Shown here: one piece after another, positions 4,279 to 54,296 of the stretch
Position numbering within the stretch: the first letter of the stretch is position 1
Layout: each line of letters begins with the position of its first letter
Assembly (NCBI RefSeq): GCF_004310335.1
Contig: NZ_SIRS01000007.1
Location: forward strand, 1-64,000
From: Hyunsoonleella pacifica
Lineage (GTDB): Bacteria > Bacteroidota > Bacteroidia > Flavobacteriales > Flavobacteriaceae
Length of the DNA stretch: 64,000 nt
Direction of reading: 5' to 3'
Position numbers and translations under genes: made by a program
Notes under the pieces: model-generated
Databases searched by the model: none
What the model saw: only the letters and a program-made list of their open reading frames with translations
Told to the model about the DNA's origin: nothing

Positions 4279-4463
4279 GGCGTTTCCCTCCTAATGTCGG
4301 GTCGGGCTATCCGTTATATCTTTTTAAAACTTACCAGTTAACGTCATTGTTAACTTCAAAAAGCAATCTTCTTCAATTAAAACAGATTACTTCGTCGTGC
4401 CTCCTCGTAATGACGACTAATTTGCAAAAGTTTTAAAAAGGATGCCACTACTATCCCTAACGC
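4279..4463 (-). repeat. Dispersed intergenic repeat, copy B
   Basis: Read on the minus strand, it starts GCGTTAGGGATAGTAGTGGCATCC-like and ends TATAACGGATAGCC, then GACCCGACATTAGGAGG and AAACGCC. It shares an identical 32-nt inner block with copy A (here 4384-4415). It fills the gap between the rplT terminator and the convergent cyclase gene. Confidence 0.7.
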
Positions 4464-4477
4464 ACTTGCCTACTAAC

Positions 4478-7414: not shown

Positions 7415-10400
7415 TTATCTATAGAGGGTAAAATGCCCTACGAATTCTTTATCGTTTCTACTATCGTTTAACTTTACTACAAACCAATAATCTCCTGTTG
7501 GTAACTCTTTCCCCTTGTATCTTCCATCCCATTTTTCATTTACATTAAGGGTTGCAATTTTTCTACCATATCTATCAAAAATATCAAAGGTTAAATCGTC
7601 ATATTGAGACGCACAACCTATACCCCATCCATCTAAAGTCCCATCATCATTTGGTGTAAAGTAATTAGGAATACAGATATCTATAAACTCCATTGGTATT
7701 GAGGCTTCAACTTGACATCCATTAGTATCTACAACTGTTACAGTGTATGTTCCTGTTTCATAAATAATAAATGTATTTGTACTACCGTAAGATTCTCCAT
7801 TAAGGAAATACTCATAGTTTCCTGTACCACCAGTAGTTGTTGCTTCTATTTCGTTTAAACCACTTTCTCTTAACACTAAAGCCAACGGTTGGTAGTCATC
7901 AATATCAAACAAAGCACTGCGCTGTATACAACCATTAATATGTCTAACATCTATATAATGATCTAACCCTGGTGCTATATTTGTAAATGTATTGCTTGAT
8001 TGATATGTACCACCATCTAGTGCGTATTCCAATTCGGCAGGATCTACAGTATCGTTTTCATTTAGGTTTACTGTAACTGTATTAGTTGAGGCGTTATTAA
8101 CACATCCATATTCGATAACCAATTCTGGGTTAAACGCGATGGATTCAGGGAAATCTATTTCAAACTCTACTTCACAACCTTCATTATCTCTAATATAAAT
8201 CACATGATTTCCACCTGCTAAATTTGTGAAATCGAAAATAGTTTGTGTACTAGTTCCCGTTGTATATGGGCCATCATAGTTATCTAAACTCACACTATAT
8301 GGTAAACTTCCTCCTGAAACCTCTACACTAAATGCACCATTAAGTTCTCCTGTACATAATTCTGGAACTATGGAGTTTGGAACTACAGTTAGAAATACTG
8401 GAGCAGGCTCATTAATACTAAAATCAATGATTACAAAACATCCTAACTCATCTTGTACTACTGCTTGATATGTACCCGGTGCTAAATCTTCAAAAATTGG
8501 TTCATCAAAGAATTGATTCATTTGTGGAGATATTGCATATTTAATAATTCCTGTACCTCCAGTAGCTAAAATCTCTATTGAACCATTATTTTCTGCTGTA
8601 CAGGTTACATCTGTTGTATTAAAGGTTACTTCTAGTGGTAAAGACGGCTCTGTAATAGGAATAGTTGCAGAAGTTGTTAAGCAATCTCCACTATCTACTC
8701 TTACCTGATAGTTTCCGGCTGGAAGCTCTGTAAATACACCAGGACTATTTTGTGTTGCAGGAATTGCATTTCCAGAAGTATCTTGTAGGGTATATACATA
8801 ATTACCCAATCCGCCTTCTGCTGTAGCTATAATTACGCCAGTGATATCTCCAGTACAGTTAATATTAGCATTCATTGCATCTATACTAACTGTTAAATCT
8901 GGTAATGGATCAATAGTAATCTGATTTGATACATCAGTGATACAACCATTAGCGTCTCTTACATAATATTGATAATCGCCAGCCGGTACCGAGAATGTTA
9001 TTGAAGTTGCAAATGTGCCTATTACGGATGAAAAGTTACTATCTGTACTATAACTGTAAGGACCATTACCTCCTAAAGCACTTAAAGTTAGTGTTGCTTC
9101 TGTTAAACATGTTTGCGATGTTGCTTTTACTAAAGTTGCTTGTACTTCTGTAGGCTCATCAATTACAATATTTGGTGTATTGAATTCGCAATTATAACCA
9201 TCGGTTACAGTAACGTTATATGTTCCTGCTCCTAAATTATCAAAAACAGTAGATGTTTGCGGTCCTGAACTTGATACTGTTGGCAATACTTGATTAAGCG
9301 TATAAGTATAATTTGAACCTTGTCCGCCTATTGTACTTGTAACTGTAATGGTAGCATTTGTATCTCCAAAACATGATAATAATGTTGTATTTGCTGAAAT
9401 TGTGGCATCAATTGGATTTGGAATAATTAGTGTCACATTGTCTGTAGCTATACAACCTCCAGCATCTCTAACGTTTACTGTATAGACACCTGCTTCTAAA
9501 TTTGTAAACGTACCGTTTGGAGTGTATGCTACTATAGCTGCTCCTGTTAATTCATATTCGTAAGTACCATAACCGCCACTAGCTACTGCTGTTATTGTCC
9601 CTTGGTTGTTATCACATGTAACATTTGATGTTTCTGTAGCCACTACAGTTAAAGCTTCTGGTGGAGATTGAATAATTACATTAGTAGTTGTAGTACAAAA
9701 TGGGTTTGCCGTTTGTATAATTTCTACACTATAAGTTCCTGATGTCATTCCTGAAACTAATACTGGGTTTGTAGAGGTATTTGCATTAACAACACCAGTT
9801 ACCGAAGCTAAAGTACTATCAAAAACTTCATAAGTATATGGTCCAGAATAGCCACTTAAACTAAGTTCAAAACTTCCTGTGTTATCTCCAAAACAGGTTA
9901 CTGCATTTGGTGTTGTGGTTACTGTAGGCGGTATTGCCTCAGGCAAAATAACTTCTACTTCGGCGAAACAAGTGTTTGCATCGCTAAGTGTAATGGTATA
10001 TGTTCCTGATGGTACATTTGAAAACACATTTCCACTTAAGCTTATGCCTGTTGGATTTGGACTAATGGTATATGTATATACTCCTGTACCGCCTGTTCCA
10101 TTTATGGTAATTTGTCCATCGTCATTACTACATGTTGGTAATGTGGTTATACTAGGTGTTAGGTTAACTGGAGGTGCAATATCAACAGTTACTAAATTTC
10201 CACAACCATTGACATCTTGAATTTCTATAGTATGTGTTCCTGAAGCTAAATTAGATATACTAAATGGTGCTGTTCTTGTTTGAAATGCACCACCATCAAT
10301 ACTATAACTGTAAGGTGCAATTCCTGCTGTTGCTAAAGCAACATCAATTTCAAACTCTCCTTCTGCTACTGTACATTGATTATTTAATGTTGTAGAGATA

Positions 10401-13400
10401 GCTGGTTCTGGGTCTTGCGGTAAAACAATCGCTGTAGTTGTTCTTATACAATTGTATGCATCTTTTACATGAACATAATACGTGTTTGCATCAACATTAA
10501 ATGTATTTGCAGAAGCCCATGAAGGATCTGTTTCTAATGGTGCTGTACTTGACGTTGTAATTTGATAGGTATATGGTGGTGTACCATCTCTCGCAATAGC
10601 ACTGATTAATCCTGAATTAGCATTACAATTTGCATTTCTGTCTACTGTCGCAGTTATACTTAAATCTATAGCTGACTCTGAAATATTGAATGGTACAGTT
10701 ACCACACCACAACCTGCATTTAGTCCTGATGTTTCTGTTATAGAAACAAAATAGGTTCCAAAAGGTAATGCTCCTAGATTGGCAACAGGTAAACTTCCTC
10801 CAGCTGGCACTACTCCAGAACCTGTGATTCCTGTTGTAACTATAGATAGAGCGTTGAATATTTCATAATCTACATTTGTAGGAACTCCATAAACACTGTT
10901 GATTGTAAATGATACATTTCCATCAGCACTTCCAACACAAGTAATATTATTTGAGGTTACAGCTGATGCTGTTAATGTTGAATTTGTTGGTATTGATGCT
11001 GTAGCTGTTTCATAATAACTACATCCTGTAGAATCGTCATAAACAATAAATGTGTATGTAATTCCTGGCAATAATCCTGTAAAGGTTGCTGTTTGACTAC
11101 CTGGAGTATCCTCAGCCACCCATGTACCTCCTGGTGGCGGAGGTGGAATTACGCCTGTATAAATATCAAAGAAAAATGGTCCTGTACTTACTAAAGTAGT
11201 TCCAATACTCACTATCGCTTCTCCCCCTGTTGTACAATCAACAGTTGTATTTACTAAAATATCTAAATCGTTTGGTGGAGACGCTACTAATACATCTTGT
11301 ACTAAAACAGAACAACCGTTGGCATCTACTACGTTGATTTGATACAAGCCAAAATCTACGACATCAAAGGTTGTTGATGTTGTTCCTGAAGCATTTAATT
11401 CTGTTGCTGAATACCCATTTGTTCCTGTAACATAGTAATTATATGGTGCTGTTCCTCCACTAACACTTTGTACAATTACAGAACCTTTAGAGATTCCGCC
11501 ACTTAAAACATCACAAGTAATTGGTAGCGATGTATGCAAAACACTAATTGGTGTTGGTTCAGCAATAGTTATAGTTTCTGTATCCTCACAAGAATTAGCA
11601 TCTGTTAATGTGATTGTATAAGTACCTGCTGGCAAACCTGAAGTTTGTGTACCAAAATTTGTTCCTGTTGTATCGTTATTAACATTTATAACGAATGGTG
11701 GTGTCCCTACTGTACTATTAATAGTGATATCAATTGCAGCATTAGCATCTCCATTACATAAATTATCAGCAGTTTGTATTACAGAAGTGATGTCTGGTAA
11801 TGAAATGGCGTTTATAGTTTCTACTGCTGAATCTGTAGTACAATTATTAGTATCAGCTATACGGAATTGATAAGTACCATCAGTTGTTACTGTATAGTTA
11901 AATGTAGTAGCTGTAGTTCCTAAACTAGTGAAACCGCCTCCATTTATTGAAACTTCATAAGTAAATGGTGCAACTCCTCCAGAAATTGTGCCTTGAATAG
12001 TTCCATCTGGAGAGGCCGTACAATCTAAATTCTTTGTTATTACTGTTCCTACTGTTAATGGTGGTAATGGATCTATAGTGTATGTTTCAGCATAAGTACA
12101 TTGATTGGCATCCCTTACTTGAAACGTGTATGTTCCTGGTACCAATCCTATAAATGTACTTGATGGTTGGTAAGCTGTTACTGCACTAGCTGGTGCTATT
12201 ATTTGATATTCTAATGGACTTAATCCTCCAGTAGTTGTAATAGTAATATCTGAAGTGTTTGCTGGACATGTTATAGGCGTACTGCTAAAATTTAAATCTG
12301 TAGGTGGATTTAACGCATCAATTGTTATTGGTGCTGCTACAAATGTACATACATTAGCATCTCTTACTGTAACTGTATACGTACCATTGGTTAATCCTGT
12401 AAATGTTGTACCAGGTTGAAAGTTTACACCATCAATACTATATTGATAAGGAGGAAATCCTCCTGTTACTCCAGAGACAGTGATTATACCACTTGTTGTA
12501 CAAGTGTATGGTGTTGTTAGAGCAACTGTACCATTAATAGCTGTTGCTGTAGTGATGGTAATTGTCTGTGGTGTAGTTGTACAAACATCTGTTCCCAAAG
12601 TGTATTCTACTATTACATCATAATCTCCTGCTGTTAGATTTGTAAAGTTTGGAGAATTCTGATATGTAGTTCCATTATCAACACTATAACGTAGCGTATT
12701 ACCATTTGGATTAGTTACGTTAACCGTAATAGTTCCACTATCTGGATCATCAGAACATAAAATATCGGTTTGGGCAACTGTGAAATCTGGTGCTGGAATG
12801 GCATCTATAGAAATAATTGTCTCTACTTCACAATTATTGAAATCAACTACTCTAATCGTATATGTTGCTGCTGTAGGAGCATTAATTATTGGAGTGCTTT
12901 GAAATGTTGCACTACCATTTACAAAGTAATAATAAGGTGGTGTTCCTCCTGTTGGATACACTGTAATTTCCCCATCAGTACAAGTAATAGGCTTGGTTAT
13001 TGCTGATGTTGCCTCAAGTATAGGAGGCTCAATAATTTCAACATTGCCTGTATATGTACATCCATCCTCTGTTGAAACATTTACTATGTATGTTCCTGGA
13101 TTTAAGTTTTCAAAAGTATAATTATCATCCGTAATTGGTCCAACACTATTTACTAATGTTACACCATCATAAATCGAAAAGAAATACTGTGGACGCGCAT
13201 CATTGGCAGCTAAAACTACACTTCCTAACTCACCATAACATATAGGCTGTGTAACTGTAGTTTGAACCGCGAAATCTCTCTCTCTAATTTGAACATCTGG
13301 AACAGTGAATATACATGGATTAGGTGTTACACCAACTTGTCTTATATAAGCTGAATAAATACCAGGTGTATTCACTACAAAAGTATTGCTAACTTGATAA

Positions 13401-15661
13401 TTAATTCCATCAATACTATATTCATAACCACTAGGCACTCCTCCAATAATAATTTCTCCAGGTGTGGTACAAATAATATCACGTGATGCAACATTAGGAA
13501 CCAACAAGTTTTCGTAAACATTGAAGTAAAACTGATTGAAGCACCCTCCATCATAATTAAGTGTTAACCTATATTGTCCAGCAGTATCAGCAGTATAACT
13601 TGCTCCTGTAGCAACTTGATTCCATGAACAAGTATCACTTTCATTAGCACAGTCCTGATTTAAAACAGCTGTACAGCTTGATTCATCTAACACTTCCCAA
13701 ATCATTGAAGATGTATCCGTGATATTGGTTTGTATAAATCTTGAATCGTTTGCACCACATAAAAAGATATTTGGTAATTCTTTACCATCATTAGGACATA
13801 TTACCACTTCATCAGCAAAAGGTATTACTGGATTTGTAACATTAGATCCAAAAAGTGTAACATCAAATTGTTGGGTTATTGATTGACATGGTGCAGTTGC
13901 AGCATTGTATACATAATAGGTGCCTGTTGAAGTAACCGTAATCGATTGTCCAGTTCCAATAACAGGTGTGCCACTAGGACTTGTTGACCAAGTATATGAA
14001 TCGTATCCATTACCAGCCGTTAGTGTTGTAGAATCTCCACAAAGCACTACATTTTCATCAAACGTACAGTTTAAATTTCCTAAAAAGTTTGTAGCTCTTG
14101 GCGTGATTAAACACCCAGTATTACTATTATAACTTGGGTCATCAGAAATTTCAAAAGTATCATTTATAGTACCTCGATAAGTTACATAAGCCTGATTACT
14201 AATTATGTTAGAACAAGCATCGGTTAACAAACTACAATCTGACACTACAGTTACACTAAAACGAATTTCTTGTACAGGATCGTTTTCCTCTACAAGGGAT
14301 TCATCTACTTGAAAAATTATTTCACGTGTACTAGCATCATAACTTTTTACTGTAACTCCAGGAGGTAGTGATACAATGTCGGCAGGATAATTGAATATAA
14401 TATTGATTGGTAGTATATCTCTTATTATGATTCCTGTTTCACCTACTGGCGGTCTAGCATCATCATTACCTGTGTTTTGAAATCCTATAACATAATTTAA
14501 TTCATCTCCCAGATCTACTTCCTGTCCCTCTATGTCTGTACCAAATTCATCTTCAACAATTTTGGTAAGCACTATATTTGGTGCAATAATTTCAATAGCA
14601 AAGGCACTGAAATAATAGTAATATATATCCAAATTACTTCCTAAACTTATAGTTGCATTAGTGTCTCCATTTCCAATAATGGTATTACCTGCATTTGGTA
14701 TGTTTATAATTCCCGCATCGAATCCTAATGTGTTTGTACCTGCAGGATTTCTGTCAAAAAATAATTCTGGTGTGTTGGTAACTGGGTCAATTATGGAAAC
14801 TGTACTGTTAAAGAAATTATTACCAGGACGAATTACCGTTCCTGAATTGTCGGTAGCATTAATGATATTGTTATTTAATTCTAAATAATCACCTGTATAA
14901 CGTCTATCTCCTTCAATAGTACTAAATGCAAATTTTGCACGAACTGGCCCTACTGGAATGGTTTGAAAACCAGAAATAGGAAAGGTTTCATTTATGGCAC
15001 TGGTAATTTTTGTAAATCCATCAAATGATGTAATGTATTTACTTGGTAATAGTGGGTCTTCATAAATAACGAAAAGAGACCAACCTGCCGAAAGCCCTTC
15101 TGAATTAGGTTTGGGACCTACTAATGATGATATATTTGCTACACCATAAGTTCCTTCTGGATTAGGTAAAGCAGTTAGTATATCGGTTACGTCATGATAA
15201 TATACATAAGTATTTGAATTTCTGTTATTTGCTGCATTTTGAAAATAAATTTGTGTTCCTGTAATATCTTGATAAGCTGTACTTCCAGGGACTCTAAATT
15301 TAATATCTGATATTGGTTCAGCACCATTAACTACTGCACTCCAATACAATCCTGCATATACAATTTGATAGCAATTTGTATCGCTTGGCACATCTAAATC
15401 TGCTGTACTAGAATTAAATGTAGTGGGGTCGCTGTCAATATCTACATAAACTGCAGCATCTATTCTGTCATTTGTGTTATTTCCATTATAAGGGTTAGTA
15501 ATATGTAGCCCAACATTACTATTTCCAATTAAAAGCATATCACCCTTAATAGCCTCGTCATATCTAGGTAAAAATGGAACAACATTTTGTGCAAAACACT
15601 GTATACCTATTAAGAGCATCAAAGCAAGGATACAGTTATTTACATAAGTAGGTGTTTTCAT
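7415..15661 (-). CDS. sprB: Giant SprB-repeat adhesin, T9SS type B cargo
   Basis: A 2748-residue cell-surface protein, likely a gliding or attachment adhesin. It has a signal peptide (MKTPTYVNNCILALMLLIGIQCFAQ). Next comes a globular N-region and a DUF11-like segment (about 365-500), then roughly 21 tandem SprB-type modules of 80-95 residues. Most modules have the pattern ITC...GG.PPY.YSIDG...F..L..GTYTV.V.DANGC. Each usually has one Cys near its start and one in the final DANxC, suggesting one disulfide per module. The last ~85 residues (CIPNYFTPNDDG onward, FDIFDRYGRKI, ending GHFTLYR) form the CHU_C sorting domain read by the T9SS. Flanked by two PorP/SprF genes. It is shorter than F. johnsoniae SprB; the symbol is by analogy and could mark a paralogous adhesin. 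Confidence 0.85.
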   Translation of the reverse strand: MKTPTYVNNCILALMLLIGIQCFAQNVVPFLPRYDEAIKGDMLLIGNSNVGLHITNPYNGNNTNDRIDAAVYVDIDSDPTTFNSSTADLDVPSDTNCYQIVYAGLYWSAVVNGAEPISDIKFRVPGSTAYQDITGTQIYFQNAANNRNSNTYVYYHDVTDILTALPNPEGTYGVANISSLVGPKPNSEGLSAGWSLFVIYEDPLLPSKYITSFDGFTKITSAINETFPISGFQTIPVGPVRAKFAFSTIEGDRRYTGDYLELNNNIINATDNSGTVIRPGNNFFNSTVSIIDPVTNTPELFFDRNPAGTNTLGFDAGIINIPNAGNTIIGNGDTNATISLGSNLDIYYYYFSAFAIEIIAPNIVLTKIVEDEFGTDIEGQEVDLGDELNYVIGFQNTGNDDARPPVGETGIIIRDILPINIIFNYPADIVSLPPGVTVKSYDASTREIIFQVDESLVEENDPVQEIRFSVTVVSDCSLLTDACSNIISNQAYVTYRGTINDTFEISDDPSYNSNTGCLITPRATNFLGNLNCTFDENVVLCGDSTTLTAGNGYDSYTWSTSPSGTPVIGTGQSITVTSTGTYYVYNAATAPCQSITQQFDVTLFGSNVTNPVIPFADEVVICPNDGKELPNIFLCGANDSRFIQTNITDTSSMIWEVLDESSCTAVLNQDCANESDTCSWNQVATGASYTADTAGQYRLTLNYDGGCFNQFYFNVYENLLVPNVASRDIICTTPGEIIIGGVPSGYEYSIDGINYQVSNTFVVNTPGIYSAYIRQVGVTPNPCIFTVPDVQIRERDFAVQTTVTQPICYGELGSVVLAANDARPQYFFSIYDGVTLVNSVGPITDDNYTFENLNPGTYIVNVSTEDGCTYTGNVEIIEPPILEATSAITKPITCTDGEITVYPTGGTPPYYYFVNGSATFQSTPIINAPTAATYTIRVVDFNNCEVETIISIDAIPAPDFTVAQTDILCSDDPDSGTITVNVTNPNGNTLRYSVDNGTTYQNSPNFTNLTAGDYDVIVEYTLGTDVCTTTPQTITITTATAINGTVALTTPYTCTTSGIITVSGVTGGFPPYQYSIDGVNFQPGTTFTGLTNGTYTVTVRDANVCTFVAAPITIDALNPPTDLNFSSTPITCPANTSDITITTTGGLSPLEYQIIAPASAVTAYQPSSTFIGLVPGTYTFQVRDANQCTYAETYTIDPLPPLTVGTVITKNLDCTASPDGTIQGTISGGVAPFTYEVSINGGGFTSLGTTATTFNYTVTTDGTYQFRIADTNNCTTDSAVETINAISLPDITSVIQTADNLCNGDANAAIDITINSTVGTPPFVINVNNDTTGTNFGTQTSGLPAGTYTITLTDANSCEDTETITIAEPTPISVLHTSLPITCDVLSGGISKGSVIVQSVSGGTAPYNYYVTGTNGYSATELNASGTTSTTFDVVDFGLYQINVVDANGCSVLVQDVLVASPPNDLDILVNTTVDCTTGGEAIVSIGTTLVSTGPFFFDIYTGVIPPPPPGGTWVAEDTPGSQTATFTGLLPGITYTFIVYDDSTGCSYYETATASIPTNSTLTASAVTSNNITCVGSADGNVSFTINSVYGVPTNVDYEIFNALSIVTTGITGSGVVPAGGSLPVANLGALPFGTYFVSITETSGLNAGCGVVTVPFNISESAIDLSITATVDRNANCNANSGLISAIARDGTPPYTYQITTSSTAPLETDPSWASANTFNVDANTYYVHVKDAYNCIRTTTAIVLPQDPEPAISTTLNNQCTVAEGEFEIDVALATAGIAPYSYSIDGGAFQTRTAPFSISNLASGTHTIEIQDVNGCGNLVTVDIAPPVNLTPSITTLPTCSNDDGQITINGTGGTGVYTYTISPNPTGISLSGNVFSNVPSGTYTITLSDANTCFAEVEVILPEAIPPTVTTTPNAVTCFGDNTGSFELSLSGYSGPYTYEVFDSTLASVTGVVNANTSTNPVLVSGMTSGTYSVEIIQTANPFCTTTTNVIIQSPPEALTVVATETSNVTCDNNQGTITAVASGGYGTYEYELTGAAIVAYTPNGTFTNLEAGVYTVNVRDAGGCIATDNVTLIIPNPIDATISANTTLLSCFGDTNATITVTSTIGGQGSNYTYTLNQVLPTVSSSGPQTSTVFDNLGAGTYNVTVTDGYNCEFNTPNIVIDEPTEVQATLVKATSQTCLTEATLTLSALGGNGPYSYSTDSNFSSVIGTFATSITFSVPAGDYQYYVRDANGCITDVSNQITIDPLPDLTVSIDAMNANINCTGDITGVIIATAEGGLGNYVYTLQDTSGNAIPATQNSPGVFTELPAGNYQVRVDSGDCLTTSATIPITEPSLPLEVTFNTTDVTCTAENNGSIEILATGGTGIIKYAISPQMNQFFDEPIFEDLAPGTYQAVVQDELGCFVIIDFSINEPAPVFLTVVPNSIVPELCTGELNGAFSVEVSGGSLPYSVSLDNYDGPYTTGTSTQTIFDFTNLAGGNHVIYIRDNEGCEVEFEIDFPESIAFNPELVIEYGCVNNASTNTVTVNLNENDTVDPAELEYALDGGTYQSSNTFTNIAPGLDHYIDVRHINGCIQRSALFDIDDYQPLALVLRESGLNEIEATTTGGTGNYEYFLNGESYGSTNTFIIYETGTYTVTVVDTNGCQVEASIPMEFIDICIPNYFTPNDDGTLDGWGIGCASQYDDLTFDIFDRYGRKIATLNVNEKWDGRYKGKELPTGDYWFVVKLNDSRNDKEFVGHFTLYR

Positions 15662-36390: not shown

Positions 36391-36463
36391 GACCGGGTAG
36401 CTCAGTTGGTAGAGCATCTCCCTTTTAAGGAGAGGGTCCTGGGTTCGAGCCCCAGCCCGGTCA
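36391..36463 (+). tRNA. tRNA-Lys (UUU)
   Basis: A 73-nt cloverleaf: acceptor GACCGGG with CCCGGTC, D-arm AGCTCAGTTGGTAGAGC, anticodon stem TCTCC/GGAGA with loop CTTTTAA giving anticodon UUU, and T-arm CTGGGTTCGAGCCCCAG. The discriminator is A and CCA is not encoded. Confidence 0.96.
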
Positions 36464-36517: not shown

Positions 36518-36601
36518 GCACACGTGGCGGAATTGGTAGACGCGCTGCCTTGAGGGGGCAGTGTCCTTATGGACGTGGAAGTTCGAATCTTCTCGTGTGC
36601 A
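36518..36601 (+). tRNA. tRNA-Leu (GAG)
   Basis: An 84-nt class II tRNA: acceptor GCACACG with CGTGTGC, D-arm GGCGGAATTGGTAGACGC, anticodon stem CTGCC/GGCAG with loop TTGAGGG giving anticodon GAG, a long variable arm (TGTCCTTATGGACG) and T-arm with GTTCGAATC. CCA is not encoded. Confidence 0.95.
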
Positions 36602-36650: not shown

Positions 36651-38894
36651 TTATCTATTTGGCGCATTCAATTGCTGATAAAATTGCTGGTATTGTTGAT
36701 TTCCTGGATATAATTGTACCAATCTAGATGCCATATTTCTGGCCTTAACTAAATCGCCTTGTTTTTGAAAAATATAAGCCATAACATAAAGTAAACTATC
36801 ATTATTAGCATCTAACTTCAACCCTTTTGCCGCAATCTCCTCTGCTTTCTTTAAGTTATTTGCTTTCTCATAAAGCAAACTTAAATTATAATAAAACCTT
36901 ATGTTTTCTGGCATATATTTTATCGCCAATTCCATTTGATCTATAGCTTCATCTACTCTATTTTGTTCTGCTAATAATAGTGCATAAGAGTAGTAAGTTT
37001 GCCCAAAATCAGGCTCTTGTTGGATAATGGTTTTAAAGGCTTCTTCCGCTTTCGCCATATCTTTACTTCTGTAATATAAATTAGCAAGATTAGTGCGAAT
37101 CATATTATTCATACCATCAATTTGTAGTGCTTTTTCATACCATTTTATTGCATTTGCTACATCTCCCTTGTTAAGAAAATACAATGCCTTTTTTGCTCTT
37201 CCCCCAGTAAAGTCAGATGTAACACTTAAATGAGTTTCAAACTCTTTTTTAACGATGCTATAAACCGCTTTATAATCCTTTGGTATTTGAAATTCATTTA
37301 GGCTAGCAACTGCCAAAAAGGCTTTTACTCTCACTGCTCGTTTTTCATCTTTAAGTAAGGGCAAAAAGTAATCAATATAGTCTACAGAATTTATATCATT
37401 AAATGCATCTATAGTTGCACCTCTTACAAGTGGCGAATCATCATTTAAAAATGTCAGCATATTTTCTATAGCTGTTTTACTCAAGTAATTTGGCATTGCT
37501 CTTACAGCAGATGCCCTAGCTATCTCAGGGTAAATAGTATCTTTTGATAATTCTAATAGTTTTTCAAAACCGTGAGGGTCTCCTGTAAGCGCTGGTGTCA
37601 ATAACTCGGAAAAATGTTTGTTTTTAGGAGTACCATGCGATTTCTTATAATTTTCCCATGCCCATTCATCATCTTTATCTGTATGGCATTGAGTACATGC
37701 GTTAGGTGTGCCATATTTTAAACTTAAATCTGGACGAGGAATTCTAAAACTATGATCTCTTCTGTAATCATTACCCATATAAGTTTTTCCAGTCATATGA
37801 CAATTAATACACTGTGCACCTTCTGAATTTTCTTTATGAAAATGATGAGAAGGGACGTTATAAGTTTGTGGCTCATGACATTGCGCACATAACAAATTAC
37901 CCTCAAACTTTAATTCTAAAGAATGTGGATTATGGCAGTCTGTACATGTTACGTTATTCTGATACATTTTACTTTGAAGAAATGATCCATAAACATAAAC
38001 TTCATCTAGAATTTGTCCATCTGTATGATACAATCCGTTAGTAATTAACTGCGGGAAATAATGATCCAAAAACGTGCCTTCAAAATTGTAATACTCTGAA
38101 TATTGTTCGCGTCTAACATGACATCTTGCACATTCATCAACCAACGTTTTAGGCAAAGTAGCATGCGTCATTTTTAAATCTCCAGTAGGCTTATATTCAT
38201 TCCCAAGCTTATTAACTTGTAGCACATGGTTTTTTCCAGGACCATGACACGCTTCACAACTTACATTAATTAGTGCGTATTCTGTATTGTAACTATGGTT
38301 ATCAATATTATAGTTTTTTCTAACATTGGTAGAGTGACAATCCGCACACATATTATTCCAATTAAGCCCTCCTCTAGACCAATGCAACCATTCAGAATGC
38401 ACTACTTTAAAATCTGGATATAAATCAAACCATACCTTTTTTTCAGTATCCCAAGCCGTTCGTAAACACTGATAATGACCATCTGGAAATTTAACTATAT
38501 ATTGCTGTAAAGGAGTAATACCAAAAGTATATTCAATTTTATAATCATGATACTTACCATCTCTACCTTCAGTATTTACATAGTGATTTCCTTCTCTTTT
38601 AAAAAACCTAGAGGTAATTCCTTGACTTTTAAAAACCGAGTTATCAAAATTTCCTAAAATTGTAGAATCACCGGCTATTTGCATTGCCTTATCGTGATGT
38701 GAACCTTCCCAATCTTTAAATTGCTCTTTATGGCAACTAGCACAAGTTTCATCACCCAAAAAATGACTATCTGGGATTAAATGCGTAGATGAGAAACCTT
38801 TACCTGTAACATACTGTTTATCAACATATTCAAACTTATCATTCTTACAAGAAAAAAACAATAAAAATGTTAAAATCAAAACTATCCAACGCAT
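36651..38894 (-). CDS. Octaheme cytochrome c-TPR lipoprotein
   Basis: About 747 residues starting at MRWIVLILTFLLFFSCKND, a lipoprotein signal; the first in-frame ATG at 38954 would bury that signal. Eight CxxCH heme motifs are spread over about residues 55-405 (CASCH, CADCH, CEACH, CARCH, CTDCH, CAQCH, CINCH, CTQCH). A helical HEAT-like segment (about 430-560, RASAVRAMPNYLS, SPLVRGATIDAFNDI) follows, then tetratricopeptide repeats to the end (ALYFLNKGDVANAIKWYEKALQ). It is probably a periplasm- or surface-facing electron-transfer protein with a protein-binding scaffold. It resembles multiheme cytochromes of the c554/NrfA-like pool, but its redox partner is not encoded nearby. Confidence 0.85.
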   Translation of the reverse strand: MRWIVLILTFLLFFSCKNDKFEYVDKQYVTGKGFSSTHLIPDSHFLGDETCASCHKEQFKDWEGSHHDKAMQIAGDSTILGNFDNSVFKSQGITSRFFKREGNHYVNTEGRDGKYHDYKIEYTFGITPLQQYIVKFPDGHYQCLRTAWDTEKKVWFDLYPDFKVVHSEWLHWSRGGLNWNNMCADCHSTNVRKNYNIDNHSYNTEYALINVSCEACHGPGKNHVLQVNKLGNEYKPTGDLKMTHATLPKTLVDECARCHVRREQYSEYYNFEGTFLDHYFPQLITNGLYHTDGQILDEVYVYGSFLQSKMYQNNVTCTDCHNPHSLELKFEGNLLCAQCHEPQTYNVPSHHFHKENSEGAQCINCHMTGKTYMGNDYRRDHSFRIPRPDLSLKYGTPNACTQCHTDKDDEWAWENYKKSHGTPKNKHFSELLTPALTGDPHGFEKLLELSKDTIYPEIARASAVRAMPNYLSKTAIENMLTFLNDDSPLVRGATIDAFNDINSVDYIDYFLPLLKDEKRAVRVKAFLAVASLNEFQIPKDYKAVYSIVKKEFETHLSVTSDFTGGRAKKALYFLNKGDVANAIKWYEKALQIDGMNNMIRTNLANLYYRSKDMAKAEEAFKTIIQQEPDFGQTYYSYALLLAEQNRVDEAIDQMELAIKYMPENIRFYYNLSLLYEKANNLKKAEEIAAKGLKLDANNDSLLYVMAYIFQKQGDLVKARNMASRLVQLYPGNQQYQQFYQQLNAPNR

Positions 38895-39113
38895 AGATAA
38901 AAACTGTAAAATTCTAAAGTGATATTTAAATAGTGAATAATCAAAAATACTCAATAATCTCAGAGTGACAAAGGTTTTTGAAAGGAAAACAGCTTAAACA
39001 AATTATTAAAAAAATTAAAAAATAAATTGTAAAAAACGACTTAATATAAACTTGCCTTTGTTAATTTTTTATTTTTTTCGTGTCTTTTTTAAGGTTTATT
39101 CAATAGGTATTCG

Positions 39114-39121
39114 TAATTTTG
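39114..39121 (+). promoter_or_regulatory. merR/crt operon -7 element
   Basis: TAATTTTG fits TAnnTTTG and lies 21 bases before the ATG at 39143; no TTG sits at the ideal -33 spacing, as often seen for regulated promoters. Its last bases form TTTGTTTAAG, the same word repeated before crtI. It overlaps a TTG start in the same frame at 39119, which argues for the downstream ATG. Confidence 0.45.
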
Positions 39122-39142
39122 TTTAAGAAAAATTGCTTTTTA

Positions 39143-40045
39143 ATGAACAATGTGCAAGTAAATTTTAGTATTAAAGATCTTGAAAACCTAACAGGTATAA
39201 AGGCTCATACTATAAGAATATGGGAAAAGCGATATAATTTATTGCAGCCTAATAGGTCTGAAACAAACATTAGAAATTACAGTTTAGCCAGCCTTCAAAA
39301 GCTACTAAATATATCTTTTTTAAATAATAGTGGCTATAAAATATCTAAAATAGCAAAATTAAGTGAAGAAGAAATTCCTATTAAAGTAAGAGAAATAGCA
39401 TCTAGAGCTAAAGTAGAAGATCATGCTATAAATGCTTTTAAGCTCTCAATGCTTAATTTTGATCAAGTATTATTTTACAACACTTACAACAATCTTATAG
39501 AAAACAAATCTTTTAATGATATTTTCTATGATATATTTCTCCCTCTATTACATGAAATTGGGCTTTTATGGCAAACAGATACTATAACCCCAGCCCATGA
39601 ACACTTTTTAACATCACACATAAAACAGAAAATTCTATTAAATATAGAACGACTCCAAAGTTTAGAACCTAAACCTGTTTCTACAACTTTTATATTGTTT
39701 CTACCTGATAATGAAGTACATGATATTGGTCTACTCTTTATCAATTATCAGCTTAGAAGTAAAGGCTACCATACTATATTTTTAGGAGAAAGTGTTCCTA
39801 TGTCTAGTTTAGTTAGTGTCTTAGAATTTTTTGACGAAATAACTTTTATAACATATTTTACAGTTAAACCTGAAATTGAAGAAATTCCAAATTACATTAA
39901 GGAATTTAATGAATTACTACTAGGTAACTCTAAAATTAATTTAATGCTTTTAGGCCCTAAATTAGTTTCACTAGATGAAAACATAAGTTTACCTGAGCGC
40001 GTTAAAATGTATGATTCTATCGAAAATTTAGTTAAAGATTTATAA
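39143..40045 (+). CDS. MerR-type B12-binding photoreceptor regulator (CarH/LitR-like)
   Basis: A 300-residue transcription regulator heading the carotenoid operon. The N-terminal MerR winged helix (about 8-75, IKDLENLTGIKAHTIRIWEKRYNLLQPNR) is followed by a helical bundle with the W-x9-EH signature (W143, E153-H154). The B12-binding domain carries the E-x-H-x-x-G motif (E191-V-H193-D-I-G196) and the GYHTIFLGESVP loop. In Thermus CarH and Myxococcus CarA/CarH these residues cap and bind adenosylcobalamin; light breaks the tetramer and frees carotenoid genes. By analogy, this protein should repress the crt genes in the dark. I chose the ATG at 39143 because the upstream TTG overlaps the -7 box. 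The gap to crtI is 42 bases. Confidence 0.85.
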   Translation: MNNVQVNFSIKDLENLTGIKAHTIRIWEKRYNLLQPNRSETNIRNYSLASLQKLLNISFLNNSGYKISKIAKLSEEEIPIKVREIASRAKVEDHAINAFKLSMLNFDQVLFYNTYNNLIENKSFNDIFYDIFLPLLHEIGLLWQTDTITPAHEHFLTSHIKQKILLNIERLQSLEPKPVSTTFILFLPDNEVHDIGLLFINYQLRSKGYHTIFLGESVPMSSLVSVLEFFDEITFITYFTVKPEIEEIPNYIKEFNELLLGNSKINLMLLGPKLVSLDENISLPERVKMYDSIENLVKDL

Positions 40046-40056
40046 ATAGATTTATT

Positions 40057-40087
40057 TTTGTTTAACTTTTAATTATATTTGTTAAAC
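40057..40087 (+). promoter_or_regulatory. crtI upstream direct repeat, candidate operator
   Basis: TTTGTTTAAC (40057-40066) and TTTGTTAAAC (40078-40087) are direct repeats 21 bp apart. Their complements fit the nnTnnACAnn core that I recall for CarH operator repeats. The second copy overlaps a -7 match TATATTTG (40074-40081) that ends seven bases before the crtI ATG, so a bound regulator would block a promoter there. Confidence 0.4.
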
Positions 40088-41551
40088 ATGAATAAAACAA
40101 TAGCCATAATCGGTTCTGGATTTTCAGCACTCTCTGCTAGTAGTTATTTAAAACAGTATGGATTTGAAGTATCTGTATTTGAAAAAAACAGCACAGTTGG
40201 TGGACGTGCAAGACAGTTAAAAAAAGACGGTTTTACTTTTGATATAGGCCCCAGTTGGTATTGGATGCCAGATATATTCGAAAAGTTTTTCAACGATTTT
40301 GGCAAATCAACCTCTGATTATTATCAGTTGGATAAATTAAGTCCTGCGTACAAAATATTCTTCAAAGATGAAATCATTACTATTGGAGATACTATGGACA
40401 AAATATGTGCAGAATTTGAGCGTATTGAACCAGGCAGCTCTAAACCTCTACAAAAATTTATCAATAAAGCAGCTACAAATTATGATATAGCTATTAATAA
40501 AGTAGTGTTAAAACCTGGAGTATCTCCTTTTGAATTAATCACTCCTGAAACAGCTACAAGAGTAGATCAGTTTTTTAAAACCATAAGTGGAGATGTTAGA
40601 AAAAAATTTAAAAACCCTAAGCTAATTTCCACCCTAGAATTCCCAGTACTCTTCTTAGGTGCTAAACCTAGTAATACACCATCATTCTACAGTTTTATGA
40701 ATTATGCTGATTTTGGTTTAGGCACATGGCATCCCAAAGGTGGGATGTATGAAGTGATTAAAGCTATGAAGGCTCTAGCTGAAAGCTTGGGTGTTAAAAT
40801 ATATACTGATAGTGCAGTTGAAAAAATAAATGTAAAGCAAAAAACTGCAACCTCGATAAAAGTAAATAATGAAATTAAAACATTTGATATTGTTTTAAGT
40901 GGTGCAGATTATCATCATTCTGAATCTTTACTTGATAAAGTGCATAGACAATATTCCGAAACCTATTGGTCTAAAAAAACGTTTGCTCCTTCCTCCTTAT
41001 TATTTTATGTAGGCTTCAATAAAAAGCTTAAGAATATTGAACACCATAATTTATTTTTTGATACAAGTTTTGAAACCCATGCTGAAGAAATTTATGATAA
41101 TCCTAAATGGCCTAAAGACCCTTTATTTTATGCTAATTTCCCTTCTGTAACTGATGCCTCAATGGCTCCAAAAGATTGTGAAACAGGTTTTTTCTTAATA
41201 CCTATAGCTCCTGGGATTGAAGACACAAATGAAATTAGAGCTCAATATTTTGATATTATTATATCCCGATTTAACAAATTAACACAACAAGATGTTACAA
41301 ATAATATTATCTTTAAAGAGTCCTTCTGTGTTAAGGATTTTATTAAGGAATACAATTCCTATAAAGGTAACGCCTATGGAATGGCAAACACACTCTCTCA
41401 AACTGCCTTTCTTAGACCTAAACTAAAAAGTAAAAAAGTAAAAAATTTGTATTTCACTGGTCAGCTTACTGTACCAGGACCTGGAGTACCACCATCGCTA
41501 ATTTCTGGAAAGTTAGTAGCACAACTTATTAATAAACACCATAATCAATAA
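40088..41551 (+). CDS. crtI: Phytoene desaturase
   Basis: Converts phytoene to lycopene by four FAD-dependent desaturations at the membrane. About 487 residues with an N-terminal dinucleotide-binding fold (IAIIGSGFSALSASSYLKQYGFEVSVFEKN), FDIGPSWYWMPDIFEKFF and the C-terminal CrtI signature (NLYFTGQLTVPGPGVPPSLISGK). The start is ATG 40088 (MNKTIAIIG); a TTG three codons upstream overlaps the candidate promoter. One base separates its stop from crtB, so they are cotranscribed. Confidence 0.95.
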   Translation: MNKTIAIIGSGFSALSASSYLKQYGFEVSVFEKNSTVGGRARQLKKDGFTFDIGPSWYWMPDIFEKFFNDFGKSTSDYYQLDKLSPAYKIFFKDEIITIGDTMDKICAEFERIEPGSSKPLQKFINKAATNYDIAINKVVLKPGVSPFELITPETATRVDQFFKTISGDVRKKFKNPKLISTLEFPVLFLGAKPSNTPSFYSFMNYADFGLGTWHPKGGMYEVIKAMKALAESLGVKIYTDSAVEKINVKQKTATSIKVNNEIKTFDIVLSGADYHHSESLLDKVHRQYSETYWSKKTFAPSSLLFYVGFNKKLKNIEHHNLFFDTSFETHAEEIYDNPKWPKDPLFYANFPSVTDASMAPKDCETGFFLIPIAPGIEDTNEIRAQYFDIIISRFNKLTQQDVTNNIIFKESFCVKDFIKEYNSYKGNAYGMANTLSQTAFLRPKLKSKKVKNLYFTGQLTVPGPGVPPSLISGKLVAQLINKHHNQ

Positions 41552-41552
41552 T

Positions 41553-42392
41553 ATGAAAGCATTATTTGATACCGTTTCATACAATTGCAGTAAAGTAGTA
41601 ACTAAAAGTTATAGTACTTCATTTTCATTAGCCACTAAAATGCTATCTAATTCCATTAGAATGCATATTTACAATATATATGGATTTGTAAGGTTTGCAG
41701 ATGAAATTGTAGATTCTTTCCATAGTTACGATAAAGAAGATTTATTTGAGCGTTTTTCTGAAGATTTAGAAAATGCACTCAAAGATAGAATAAGTCTTAA
41801 CCCAATTTTAAATTCATTCCAGTATACTTATCATAAGTTTAATATTGATAAGAGTATGGTTGATGCTTTTATGAGAAGTATGCGATTAGATTTGCATAAA
41901 AGTGATTATCTATCTGACGAAGAATACAAAGACTATATCTATGGTTCTGCTGATGTGGTTGGGTTAATGTGTCTGAAGGTATTTGTAAAAGGAGATGAAA
42001 ATAAATTTAATGAGTTAAAAGATACTGCAATGTCGTTAGGATCTGCTTTTCAAAAAGTAAACTTTTTAAGAGATTTAAAAGCTGATTTTAATGAATTAAA
42101 CAGAAGTTATTTTCCAAATATTGATTTAGATAATCTAGATGAAAATTCTAAACAGCAAATTATTGACGATATAGAAAGTGATTTTGAAAAAGGTTTGAGT
42201 GGTATAAAAAAATTGCCAATGGAAGCTAAATTTGGTGTTTTTATGGCCTATCGCTATTACAGCCAACTTCTTAAAAAACTAAAGAAAACGCCCGCGTTAA
42301 GAATAAAAGATACTCGCATTAGAGTTTCTAACCCTAAAAAAATTGAACTCTTGATGCGTAGTTATGTAAAATATCAATTAAATTTAATGTAA
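41553..42392 (+). CDS. crtB: Phytoene synthase
   Basis: Condenses two geranylgeranyl diphosphates into phytoene. The 279 residues carry both aspartate-rich motifs of the squalene/phytoene synthase fold, FVRFADEIVDSF and NFLRDLKADFNELNRSYFPN, and the early SFSLATKMLS segment. The length is normal. It lies between crtI and crtZ in the same operon. The GGPP synthase (crtE) that would feed it is not in this window. Confidence 0.95.
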   Translation: MKALFDTVSYNCSKVVTKSYSTSFSLATKMLSNSIRMHIYNIYGFVRFADEIVDSFHSYDKEDLFERFSEDLENALKDRISLNPILNSFQYTYHKFNIDKSMVDAFMRSMRLDLHKSDYLSDEEYKDYIYGSADVVGLMCLKVFVKGDENKFNELKDTAMSLGSAFQKVNFLRDLKADFNELNRSYFPNIDLDNLDENSKQQIIDDIESDFEKGLSGIKKLPMEAKFGVFMAYRYYSQLLKKLKKTPALRIKDTRIRVSNPKKIELLMRSYVKYQLNLM

Positions 42393-42401
42393 TTTTATAC
42401 T

Positions 42402-42854
42402 ATGCAAGTTGTACTGTGGATATTGGTTTTTTTAGCAACATTCTGCTTCATGGAATTCATGGCTTGGTTTACTCATAAATATATTATGCATGGGTTTTTA
42501 TGGAGTTTACATAAAGATCATCATCACAAAGACCATGAAAGCTGGTTTGAACGTAATGATGCATTTTTTATTTTTTATGCTGTAGTAAGCATTGGTTTCT
42601 TTTTACTTTGGAAATACGAAATCTTATGGGTTGGATTCCCAATAGGTGTAGGTATTTTTGCTTATGGTTTATGCTACTTTTTGGTACATGATATTTTTAT
42701 TCATCAGCGTTTTAAAATGTTTAGAAATGCTAACAACTGGTATGCTCGTGGTGTACGTAGAGCACACAAAATCCATCATAAACACTTAGGTAAAGGTGAT
42801 GGTGAGTGCTTTGGCATGCTATTCGTCCCTTTTAAATACTTCAAAAAGAAATAA
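42402..42854 (+). CDS. crtZ: Beta-carotene hydroxylase
   Basis: A di-iron membrane hydroxylase that adds OH at C3 and C3' of beta-carotene to give zeaxanthin. The 150 residues have the four histidine motifs of the fatty acid hydroxylase superfamily: HKYIMH, HKDHHHKDHE, HDIFIHQRF and HKIHHKH. Hydrophobic helices precede and separate them. The length is normal for CrtZ. No crtW ketolase is next to it, so zeaxanthin is the expected end product of this cluster. Confidence 0.94.
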   Translation: MQVVLWILVFLATFCFMEFMAWFTHKYIMHGFLWSLHKDHHHKDHESWFERNDAFFIFYAVVSIGFFLLWKYEILWVGFPIGVGIFAYGLCYFLVHDIFIHQRFKMFRNANNWYARGVRRAHKIHHKHLGKGDGECFGMLFVPFKYFKKK

Positions 42855-42860
42855 TTATAA

Positions 42861-44003
42861 ATGGTGTTTGGTTCCCATTTTGACTATATCATTATTGGCA
42901 ATGGTTTAGCTGGTTTGCAATTGGTTTTAAAAATGGCTTCTGATACTTTTTTTGATGATAAACAAATTGCATTAATAGACCCTTCTGAAAAAAAAACTAA
43001 CGATAAAACTTGGAGTTTTTGGGAAACCGAACCTTCTCAATGGTATAACCTACCCTACAAAACATGGGAAAAAGCAAAGATTATAACTTTTGAAAAGTCT
43101 ATCTATTTAAATCTTTCTCCTTACACTTACAAATCTATTAAGGCTATTGACTTTTATAATTACGCTAAACAACAATTAAAAAGTCATAATAATATTCACT
43201 TTATAATTGATGAAGTGGTCTCCTTATCTGAAAACGAAACTTTAACCATCAATACTAAAAAAAATAGTTTTTCTGCAAATCATGTTTTTGATAGTAGAAT
43301 ACCAGAATCTTTCTATCAAGATTCTAAAAGTATCAAGATAAATCAGCATTTTAAAGGTATTGTCATCAAAACCGAAAGTGATGTTTTTGATGTAGATACT
43401 TTTACTATGATGGATTACCGTTTAAAAGATGGCAAACAAACTACATTTACTTATGTTTTACCTTTTTCAAAAAATAAGGGCTTAGTGGAGTTTACATATT
43501 TTACAGAAAATACTGTTGATGAATGTGTATATGATGATTATGTAAAGACATATATTAAAAACCACCTGCAAATTGAAAACTACCAAGTTATAGAATCTGA
43601 AATGGGAAATATACCCATGACAACCTTTCCATTTGATAGTTACAATACTAAAAATATCACAAAAATTGGTACTGGTGGTGGTTGGGTAAAACCTTCATCA
43701 GGATACTCATTTAAACATACAGAACAGAAAGTAGCAAAAATTATAACTAACATTAAAGCAAATAAAAGACCTTCGCACCATCTCTTTAAAAAGAAATATA
43801 AGTTTTATGACAAAGTGTTTCTTAAAGTTTTAAAAGATGAAAACCACAAAGGCGAGTGGATATTTAAACAGTTTTATGCTAAAAATGATATTGAAACTAT
43901 GTTTCGTTTTTTAGATGAAGAATCTACCTTTTTAGAAGAGTTAAAAATTATGTCTTCACTTTTTTCTTGGAGTTTTATAAAGGCTTTTTTTAAAACACTA
44001 TAA
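42861..44003 (+). CDS. crtY: Lycopene beta-cyclase
   Basis: Cyclises both ends of lycopene to give beta-carotene. The 380 residues start with an FAD-binding fold (DYIIIGNGLAGLQLVLKMASD), then KTWSFWETEPSQW, FDSRIP, the cyclase motif region (QHFKGIVIKT, MMDYRL, TYVLPFSKNKGLVEFTYF) and GTGGGWVKPSSGYSFKH. The length is normal for the CrtY type. It is the last gene of the crt operon; the convergent glycosyltransferase gene ends only 14 bases away. Confidence 0.93.
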   Translation: MVFGSHFDYIIIGNGLAGLQLVLKMASDTFFDDKQIALIDPSEKKTNDKTWSFWETEPSQWYNLPYKTWEKAKIITFEKSIYLNLSPYTYKSIKAIDFYNYAKQQLKSHNNIHFIIDEVVSLSENETLTINTKKNSFSANHVFDSRIPESFYQDSKSIKINQHFKGIVIKTESDVFDVDTFTMMDYRLKDGKQTTFTYVLPFSKNKGLVEFTYFTENTVDECVYDDYVKTYIKNHLQIENYQVIESEMGNIPMTTFPFDSYNTKNITKIGTGGGWVKPSSGYSFKHTEQKVAKIITNIKANKRPSHHLFKKKYKFYDKVFLKVLKDENHKGEWIFKQFYAKNDIETMFRFLDEESTFLEELKIMSSLFSWSFIKAFFKTL

Positions 44004-54092: not shown

Positions 54093-54142
54093 TACTTCCA
54101 ATATACATATATAAAACCTCATGTAAATATAGATCCGAATCT

Positions 54143-54296
54143 GCGTTAAGGATTGCAGCGGCATCCTTTTTTAAATTTTGAAAACCAAAGTTTATTTAGA
54201 ACTCATATCATTGAGGTTAGCACTTACAGCTCCCAATAATGATGTATTCTTTAAAAAAGATATAGCGGAAAGCCTGACCCCTTGTGGGTAACGCCC
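54143..54296 (+). repeat. Dispersed intergenic repeat, copy D
   Basis: The head is GCGTTAAGGATTGCAGCGGC then ATCC, and the tail TATAGCGGAAAGCCTGACCC then CTTGTGGGTAACGCCC. The interior is AT-rich and unrelated to the others. It lies between the convergent sirtuin and dehydrogenase genes; the tail ends 20 bases before the dehydrogenase stop codon. Confidence 0.7.

Follow-up and report, generated by a model that had tools for sequence, protein, structure and literature searches.

The MerR-type gene that precedes the carotenoid genes of Hyunsoonleella pacifica (contig NZ_SIRS01000007.1, positions 1 to 64,000; the window, as used here, means this whole stretch of 64,000 nucleotides) raises the question of whether this flavobacterium controls carotenoid synthesis through a photoreceptor of the CarH/LitR kind, which would sense light by means of adenosylcobalamin (AdoCbl). 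The first-pass annotation had proposed so from the residues of a cobalamin pocket and the position of the gene. Our analysis makes it likely that the product of this gene (merR, 39143..40045, plus strand) is a variant of CarH that depends on AdoCbl, is released by light and represses a set of photoprotection genes as a regulon. The pocket residues, the predicted fold, the gene order, and an inverted repeat together with its recurrence in other genomes are all taken from the sequence, and they are presented before the mechanism to which they point.

The regulator and its predicted cofactor pocket

The open reading frame (ORF) at 39143-40045 encodes, as had been claimed, 300 amino acids from an ATG at 39143. 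Its longest form opens upstream, at TTG 39119; ATG 39143 is taken as the start because TTTGTTTA is found at a fixed distance, exactly 25 bp 5' of this codon, in 64 of the 80 named loci compared. A winged helix-turn-helix (about residues 8-75) is followed by a helical cap with W143-x9-E153-H154 and a Rossmann domain with E191-x-H193-x2-G196. Pfam models for MerR_1 (1.4e-14) and for the helical cap, B12-binding_2 (1.3e-8), both scored above cut-off, and the Rossmann B12-binding domain was not matched separately at E 0.001. A phmmer search of PDB sequences gave Thermus CarH/LitR as top match (E 2.7e-14), and in its own genome the regulator is the sole strong match, two others being weak (E 0.019 and 0.47).

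In an alignment with CarH of Thermus thermophilus HB27 (TtCarH, from plasmid pTT27), the residues W143, E153, H154, E191 and H193, all present as annotated, correspond to TtCarH W131, E141, H142, E175 and H177. Among 110 orthologues (the protein of the window, 29 from kin genomes and 80 from the named loci), W143, E153, E191 and H193 are kept in all, and H154 and G196 in 108. An AlphaFold2 model built on an alignment of 52 sequences (predicted local distance difference test, pLDDT, 86.6; predicted template modelling score, pTM, 0.83) was subjected to VIA structure comparison, which ranked the cobalamin domains of TtCarH first (top row Z 20.7, root-mean-square deviation 2.5, 194 aligned), followed by CtMerR (19.6) and SasPcob (19.5), the first non-photoreceptor row being methionine synthase (16.9). 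The CarH-type cofactor pocket is thus borne out by the residue alignment and by the match of the predicted fold to the Thermus CarH cobalamin domain, the geometry of the pocket being judged solely through the sequence alignment. A supply of AdoCbl also appears to be at hand, as the genome encodes a PduO-type adenosyltransferase and methylmalonyl-CoA mutase and has one cobalamin riboswitch; a PduO-type adenosyltransferase was found in 54 of 60 genomes, this one included.

The statement that every diagnostic residue is kept holds for W143, E153, H154, E191, H193 and G196, and fails at two places: Gln144 stands where TtCarH has His132, and the B12 motif has G-P instead of GG. Gln occupies the former position in 108 of the 110 orthologues, with His in one (L105, from Kordia) and Leu in one (L106). 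A wider set of 70 proteins was drawn from a search of 296 genomes of the phylum, of which 77 matched (65 proteins), and from kin genomes (5 proteins); it contains once more the protein of the window and that of genome G012. In this set, Gln is found in 39 and His in 0 of 70, and the residues equivalent to Trp131, Glu141 and His177 are conserved in 69, 70 and 66 proteins, respectively. The regulator thus lacks the His132 ligand of a TtCarH-type photoreceptor, which in TtCarH ligates cobalt after light, giving a bis-His state (PMC10442372; this and the other papers cited are represented by parts of their text). That His is present in "many", not all, myxobacterial CarH proteins (PMC9304148). CtMerR, although it has Arg at position 132, changes in light from a tetramer into a monomer, and Gln is found there in SasPcob (both PMC11796333), so Gln144 argues against the release route of TtCarH and not against light sensing. 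The oligomer interface departs as well: the Arg176-Asp201 salt bridge of the TtCarH dimer is gone, its positions being I/V in 106/110 and S/T in 109/110 orthologues, and, of the glycines at the dimer-dimer interface, the Gly160 position is Pro in 69/110 and Gly192 is kept in 108/110, so that these positions together do not make up the TtCarH interface.

A candidate operator and its recurrence

Promoter elements upstream of merR and crtI were assigned by the -7 consensus TAnnTTTG, which we take to be of the Bacteroidetes type. The putative merR promoter, TAATTTTG (39114..39126, plus strand), overlaps the half-site TTTGTTTAA, whose first base is 25 bp 5' of the ATG, and TTTGTTTA lies within 60 bp 5' of merR in 68 of the 80 named loci against 1.14 expected from shuffles. 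Over the crtI promoter stands a putative operator, the inverted repeat TGTTTAAC-N14-GTTAAACA (40059..40088, plus strand), whose right arm is touched by a putative -7 element, TATATTTG (40074..40081, plus strand). The crtI ATG lies 7 bases past the end of this element, a closeness also seen in other repeat-bearing loci, so that the crtI mRNA may have little or no leader. The gene had been said to head the operon; merR does precede the crt genes, but a second putative promoter with a putative operator of its own is located between merR and crtI.

The repeat at crtI is conserved. Among 38 named loci with a merR-crtI gap of at least 40, it was found at up to 3/16 mismatches in 35 (shuffle rate 0.0012), the misses being L050, L074 and L076; at up to 2 mismatches, the spacer is 14 in 34 of the wide-gap loci and 15 in one (L076). 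Many narrow-gap loci (upstream of merR, L054-L110) have, in place of the spacer-14 repeat, another half-site near position -61 or -67. Within the half-site GTTAAACA, the bases TAAACA agree with TnnACA, the core of known CarH repeats. Known CarH operators are tandem 11-bp direct repeats with that core (PMC9304148, PMC8156234), whereas the conserved candidate here is an inverted repeat with a 14-base spacer. A longer pattern, TTTGTTTAAC-N11-TTTGTTAAAC, has the crtI site as its only exact match in the genome.

Sixty genomes were scanned for exact arms with any spacer of 4-24, with the reversed pattern as control. This rendered 44 places against 8 for the control, with spacer 14 in 39 of the 44. 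Exact spacer-14 sites occur in 23/43 genomes with the regulator and in 0/17 without it (Fisher 5.8e-5) or, counted by genus, in 12/31 and 0/14 (p 0.0085). Sites at crtI adjoin the regulator by construction, as the pattern was first spotted there, and the counts were therefore repeated without them, which left 15/43 versus 0/17 genomes (p 0.006) and 8/31 versus 0/14 genera (p 0.044), spacer 14 still being found in 23 of 28 places. These counts refer to sequences, not to independent events: 12 of the 60 genomes belong to one genus, and L003 and L099 are apparently one genome (L099, of H. flava, encodes a regulator 93% identical to that of the window). With one mismatch allowed, the longer pattern gave in 40 genomes 52 matches, corresponding to 50 places (two were read on both strands), distributed over 19 genomes, all with the regulator; none of 9 genomes without the regulator had one, and the reversed control gave 2. 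At 3 mismatches, the H. pacifica genome itself has 18 sites, which barely exceeds the 12 of the reversed control, so single weak sites carry no meaning; sites before GLPGLI, fasciclin, YceI-like and TonB receptor genes (named by eye) were dropped.

When the 39 spacer-14 sites were placed by hand from their coordinates, 16 fell at crtI, 12 in front of the TetR gene, 5 within photolyase clusters and 2 in front of a lipoprotein-like gene named fasciclin by eye, with 4 others left without placement. Matches to the longer pattern away from crt genes are seen repeatedly in front of a TetR-ABC1 gene pair and of a mevalonate-kinase-like gene. In H. pacifica, the TetR pair opens a same-strand run of genes (L343, C1:808884-823295), which may be a single transcript, with one repeat in front and a weaker second one inside. 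Its first part consists of TetR, an ABC1 kinase, a flavin reductase, a DUF2867/epimerase, a photolyase, a DPRP photolyase-related gene and another photolyase; after this third photolyase-type gene comes the second repeat (2/16 mismatches), followed by an ORF without family, TIGR03643, FolE, a short-chain dehydrogenase, a further ORF, a TspO-like gene (below cut-off), an ORF without NCBIfam match and a last photolyase. The light theme of the earlier annotation is supported, since the same putative operator stands before photolyase gene clusters. In G001, G002, G003, G005, G007, G008, G009 and G020, too, the TetR site has PF03441 genes at a distance of up to 15 kb, and in eight other genomes (G018, G025, G026, G039, G043, G049, G050, G056) a photolyase-family gene (PF03441) is no more than 8 kb away from the regulator gene itself.

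At up to 4/20 mismatches, the repeat precedes the TetR gene in 22 of 28 genomes with the regulator and in neither of 2 without it (G040 and G053, best 8 and 6 mismatches); the misses are G012, G018, G021, G025, G031 and G042 (5-9 mismatches), along with G039 (8), scored later. It lies 28-39 bp from the TetR gene in 21 genomes and 58 bp from it in G023. In G019 (L210), which keeps both regulator and repeat and has no match to a PduO adenosyltransferase, the match to the TetR gene contains a single in-frame TAA. In H. pacifica, the longer pattern with one mismatch also precedes a mevalonate-kinase-like gene and a UbiA-like gene (L142, C29:349060-350043), both names resting on NCBIfam matches below cut-off. 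A repeat before the former gene (up to 4/20 mismatches) was found in 12 of 48 genomes and in none of the 14 among them without the regulator; these are 10 of the 12 genomes of the genus, G017, and G013 (the last at 4 mismatches). As a general target this gene was consequently rejected. One-mismatch repeats were further seen 112 bp before a photolyase-like gene pair (L130, in G023) and 60 bp before genes resembling TspO and SRPBCC by eye (L163, in G038).

Proposed mechanism and competing explanations

AdoCbl binding, release by light, repression, and binding of the repeat by the regulator, which we infer from the above, would combine as follows. AdoCbl would be held between the helical cap (W143, E153, H154) and the Rossmann domain (H193). 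Without light, the protein in its AdoCbl form would occupy the inverted repeat over the crtI promoter and also the half-site in the promoter of merR itself, blocking transcription. In light, breakage of the Co-C bond would release the repressor and the carotenoid enzymes would be made. The same switch could act on the photolyase/cryptochrome gene cluster and, in this genus, on the mevalonate-kinase-like gene, that is, on the supply of carotenoid precursors. As Gln144 replaces His132 and the salt bridge is gone, release would probably follow a route other than the bis-His one, from an oligomer unlike the head-to-tail tetramer of Thermus.

Several observations weigh against a CarH-type light repressor of this kind. 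The exact spacer-14 repeat was not found in 20 of the 43 genomes with the regulator, and in 41 loci with a merR-crtI gap below 40 bp, a spacer-14 repeat (up to 4 mismatches) was detected 5' of merR in fewer than 6. Of the 6 genomes without a PF01923 match, one (G019) carries the regulator. The H132A form of TtCarH is mostly tetrameric in light, an earlier report of disassembly being also cited in the same source (PMC10442372). Identity to CarH of T. thermophilus HB27 is 23.2% over 73% of the query, and the NCBIfam equivalog model for CarH (NF052513) gave 66.9 bits (E 1.7e-18) against a cut-off of 400. In addition, CarH homologues have been defined by both of two signature motifs (PMC8156234): the regulator contains W-x9-EH in the helical cap and, for the lower ligand, E-x-H-x2-G, and it departs from the remainder, x41-SxV/T-x22-27-GG, having S/T237-Y-F after 40 residues and then G271 (109/110 orthologues) with R, K, H, P, Q, N, Y or S as the next residue in 107/110. 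Because only part of the second motif is present and the NCBIfam score is far below cut-off, the protein is best called CarH-like rather than CarH; it probably works like CarH, but as a variant.

The main rival as binder of the repeat is the TetR protein of the photolyase cluster, in which case MerR would control itself only, or nothing by way of the repeat. Binding to an inverted repeat in front of the protein's own operon is common among TetR regulators, and the repeat stands before the TetR gene in 22 of the 30 genomes examined. On the other hand, the presence of the repeat goes with that of the MerR gene across genomes, and its half-site is located in the merR promoter; G030, G032 and G038 have the crtI repeat (0-1/16 mismatches) without a TetR match at E 0.001, whereas G040 and G053, which have TetR and no MerR orthologue, are the two genomes with the distant best matches given above (that of G053 being equalled by 2/60 shuffles). 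We therefore regard ownership of the repeat by TetR as quite improbable. That the repeat might be a mere feature of flavobacterial housekeeping promoters and no operator seems more improbable still: its right arm does overlap a TAnnTTTG -7 type element at the crtI and mevalonate-kinase-like promoters, but at the TetR promoters a TATCTTT-type element is found downstream of the repeat, whose 14-base spacer is kept and whose right arm often lacks a preceding TTTG, and none of the 17 genomes without the regulator has the exact-arm spacer-14 repeat.

It could also be the case that the regulator binds cobalamin and reports the supply of B12, or that it is B12-independent as CarA is, and does not sense light. 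The loss of GG, the low NCBIfam CarH score and Gln at the position of the light-state His would fit such a role, and Myxococcus CarA works without B12 (PMC9304148). Nevertheless, W-x9-EH, which caps the adenosyl group, is kept in 108-110 of the 110 orthologues, whereas CarA lacks that Trp (PMC9304148), and the candidate targets are carotenoid and photolyase genes, so that we hold this explanation to be unlikely. A light-released, AdoCbl-dependent repressor remains the reading we prefer. Opinion is evenly divided, for us, on a broader proposal: that Flavobacteriaceae share a distinct class of B12 photoreceptor-repressor with no bis-His light state, which would recognise a symmetric inverted repeat, with a spacer of 14 bases and its arms set two turns of the helix apart, instead of direct repeats, its DNA-binding domains consequently being paired unlike those of Thermus CarH, and in which one protein would run a regulon of carotenoid, isoprenoid-precursor, photolyase, FolE and TspO-like genes. 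If this holds true, many marine flavobacteria would gain a light switch defined down to its DNA site and the genes it targets, B12 supply would be tied to sun protection, and there would be natural photoreceptors without the ligand thought to drive CarH disassembly, with which to test how far that mechanism is needed.

The crt cluster, its surroundings and known systems

That merR lies directly upstream of crtI-crtB-crtZ-crtY was confirmed, and crtI comes next after merR in 79 of the 80 named loci. All four genes are on the plus strand. Pfam supports crtI (phytoene desaturase family, 40088..41551), crtB (squalene/phytoene synthase family, 41553..42392) and crtY (lycopene cyclase family, 42861..44003; NCBIfam below cut-off). 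The His-rich ORF between the last two (42402..42854) had no match in Pfam or NCBIfam, and from its motifs and its place we take it to be crtZ-like. The crt genes of the annotated "zeaxanthin operon" are therefore present, while zeaxanthin as the product is uncertain: since CrtI scored 717.2 bits against a cut-off of 640 for the NCBIfam model CrtID (bifunctional phytoene/3,4-desaturase), the end product may not be plain zeaxanthin.

Divergent from merR, positions 36651-38954 encode a large protein with a multihaem-cytochrome-like region and tetratricopeptide repeats (matches below cut-offs), and a match to it is close to merR in 5 of the 80 named loci. Elsewhere in the window there are two tRNAs (36391-36463 and 36518-36601), two matches to Flavo-1 RNA that exceed the Rfam gathering score (4296-4475 and 54127-54283), and an ORF of 2748 amino acids (7415-15661) with a C-terminal type B sorting domain of the type IX secretion system.

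A MerR protein with a B12-binding domain before flavobacterial zeaxanthin genes is already in print. CarH-like control of flavobacterial crt genes has been hinted at (PMC6974559), MerR has been noted as the first gene of the crt cluster in Nonlabens (PMC11855829), and a photolyase proximity cluster was earlier found enriched in proteorhodopsin-bearing Flavobacteriia (PMC5932025, which yielded no light transcriptome of use here). Three elements were not found in print, namely the Gln that is almost invariant, the operator, and the shared regulon; for the operator or regulon, open-licence PubMed Central literature gave no match by title or start of abstract. Two candidates were set aside: MliR of Bizionia, considered as a studied orthologue, is described as being without an effector domain and concerns iron (PMC9478572), and a Chryseobacterium with light-induced crt genes gives no support, being reported, in the text consulted, to be without car or lit genes (PMC7064467).

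Among proteins described before, the MerR of Flavobacteriaceae bacterium GF1 (peg.3275; locus L110) is 56% identical to the regulator, and the parts of its description at hand contain an annotation and a suggested control by photooxidative stress, with no residues, operator or regulon. The regulon of class II LitR in Pseudomonas resembles the cluster found here, with light-induced photolyase, FolE, cryptochrome and adjoining short-chain dehydrogenase genes; unlike our regulator, that LitR has a B12 domain reduced to its helical bundle and responds to light-oxygen-voltage (LOV) proteins (PMC9758184). The photocobilin SasPcob (PDB 8J2W; Z 19.5), a cobalamin photoreceptor, shares Gln at position 132 and carries a biliverdin-binding region, a MerR helix-turn-helix not being described for it in the text cited (PMC11796333). 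CtMerR of Chloracidobacterium thermophilum (PDB 8JBS/8JBT; Z 19.4-19.6) shares the MerR type, a cobalamin domain, which in CtMerR responds to light, and the lack of His132, where it has Arg and the present regulator Gln (PMC11796333); neither targets nor an operator of CtMerR were described in the text cited. With the class I CarH/LitR of T. thermophilus (PDB 5C8D, 3WHP), finally, the regulator has in common the domain order, W-x9-EH, E-x-H-x2-G, the fold of the cobalamin domain and the linkage to carotenoid genes, and Thermus carH, too, has a photolyase gene nearby, two genes away; the regulator differs in having Gln for His132, no Arg176-Asp201 pair, no conserved Gly160, no GG, and, as candidate operator, an inverted repeat with a 14-base spacer in place of the 11-bp direct repeats reported there.
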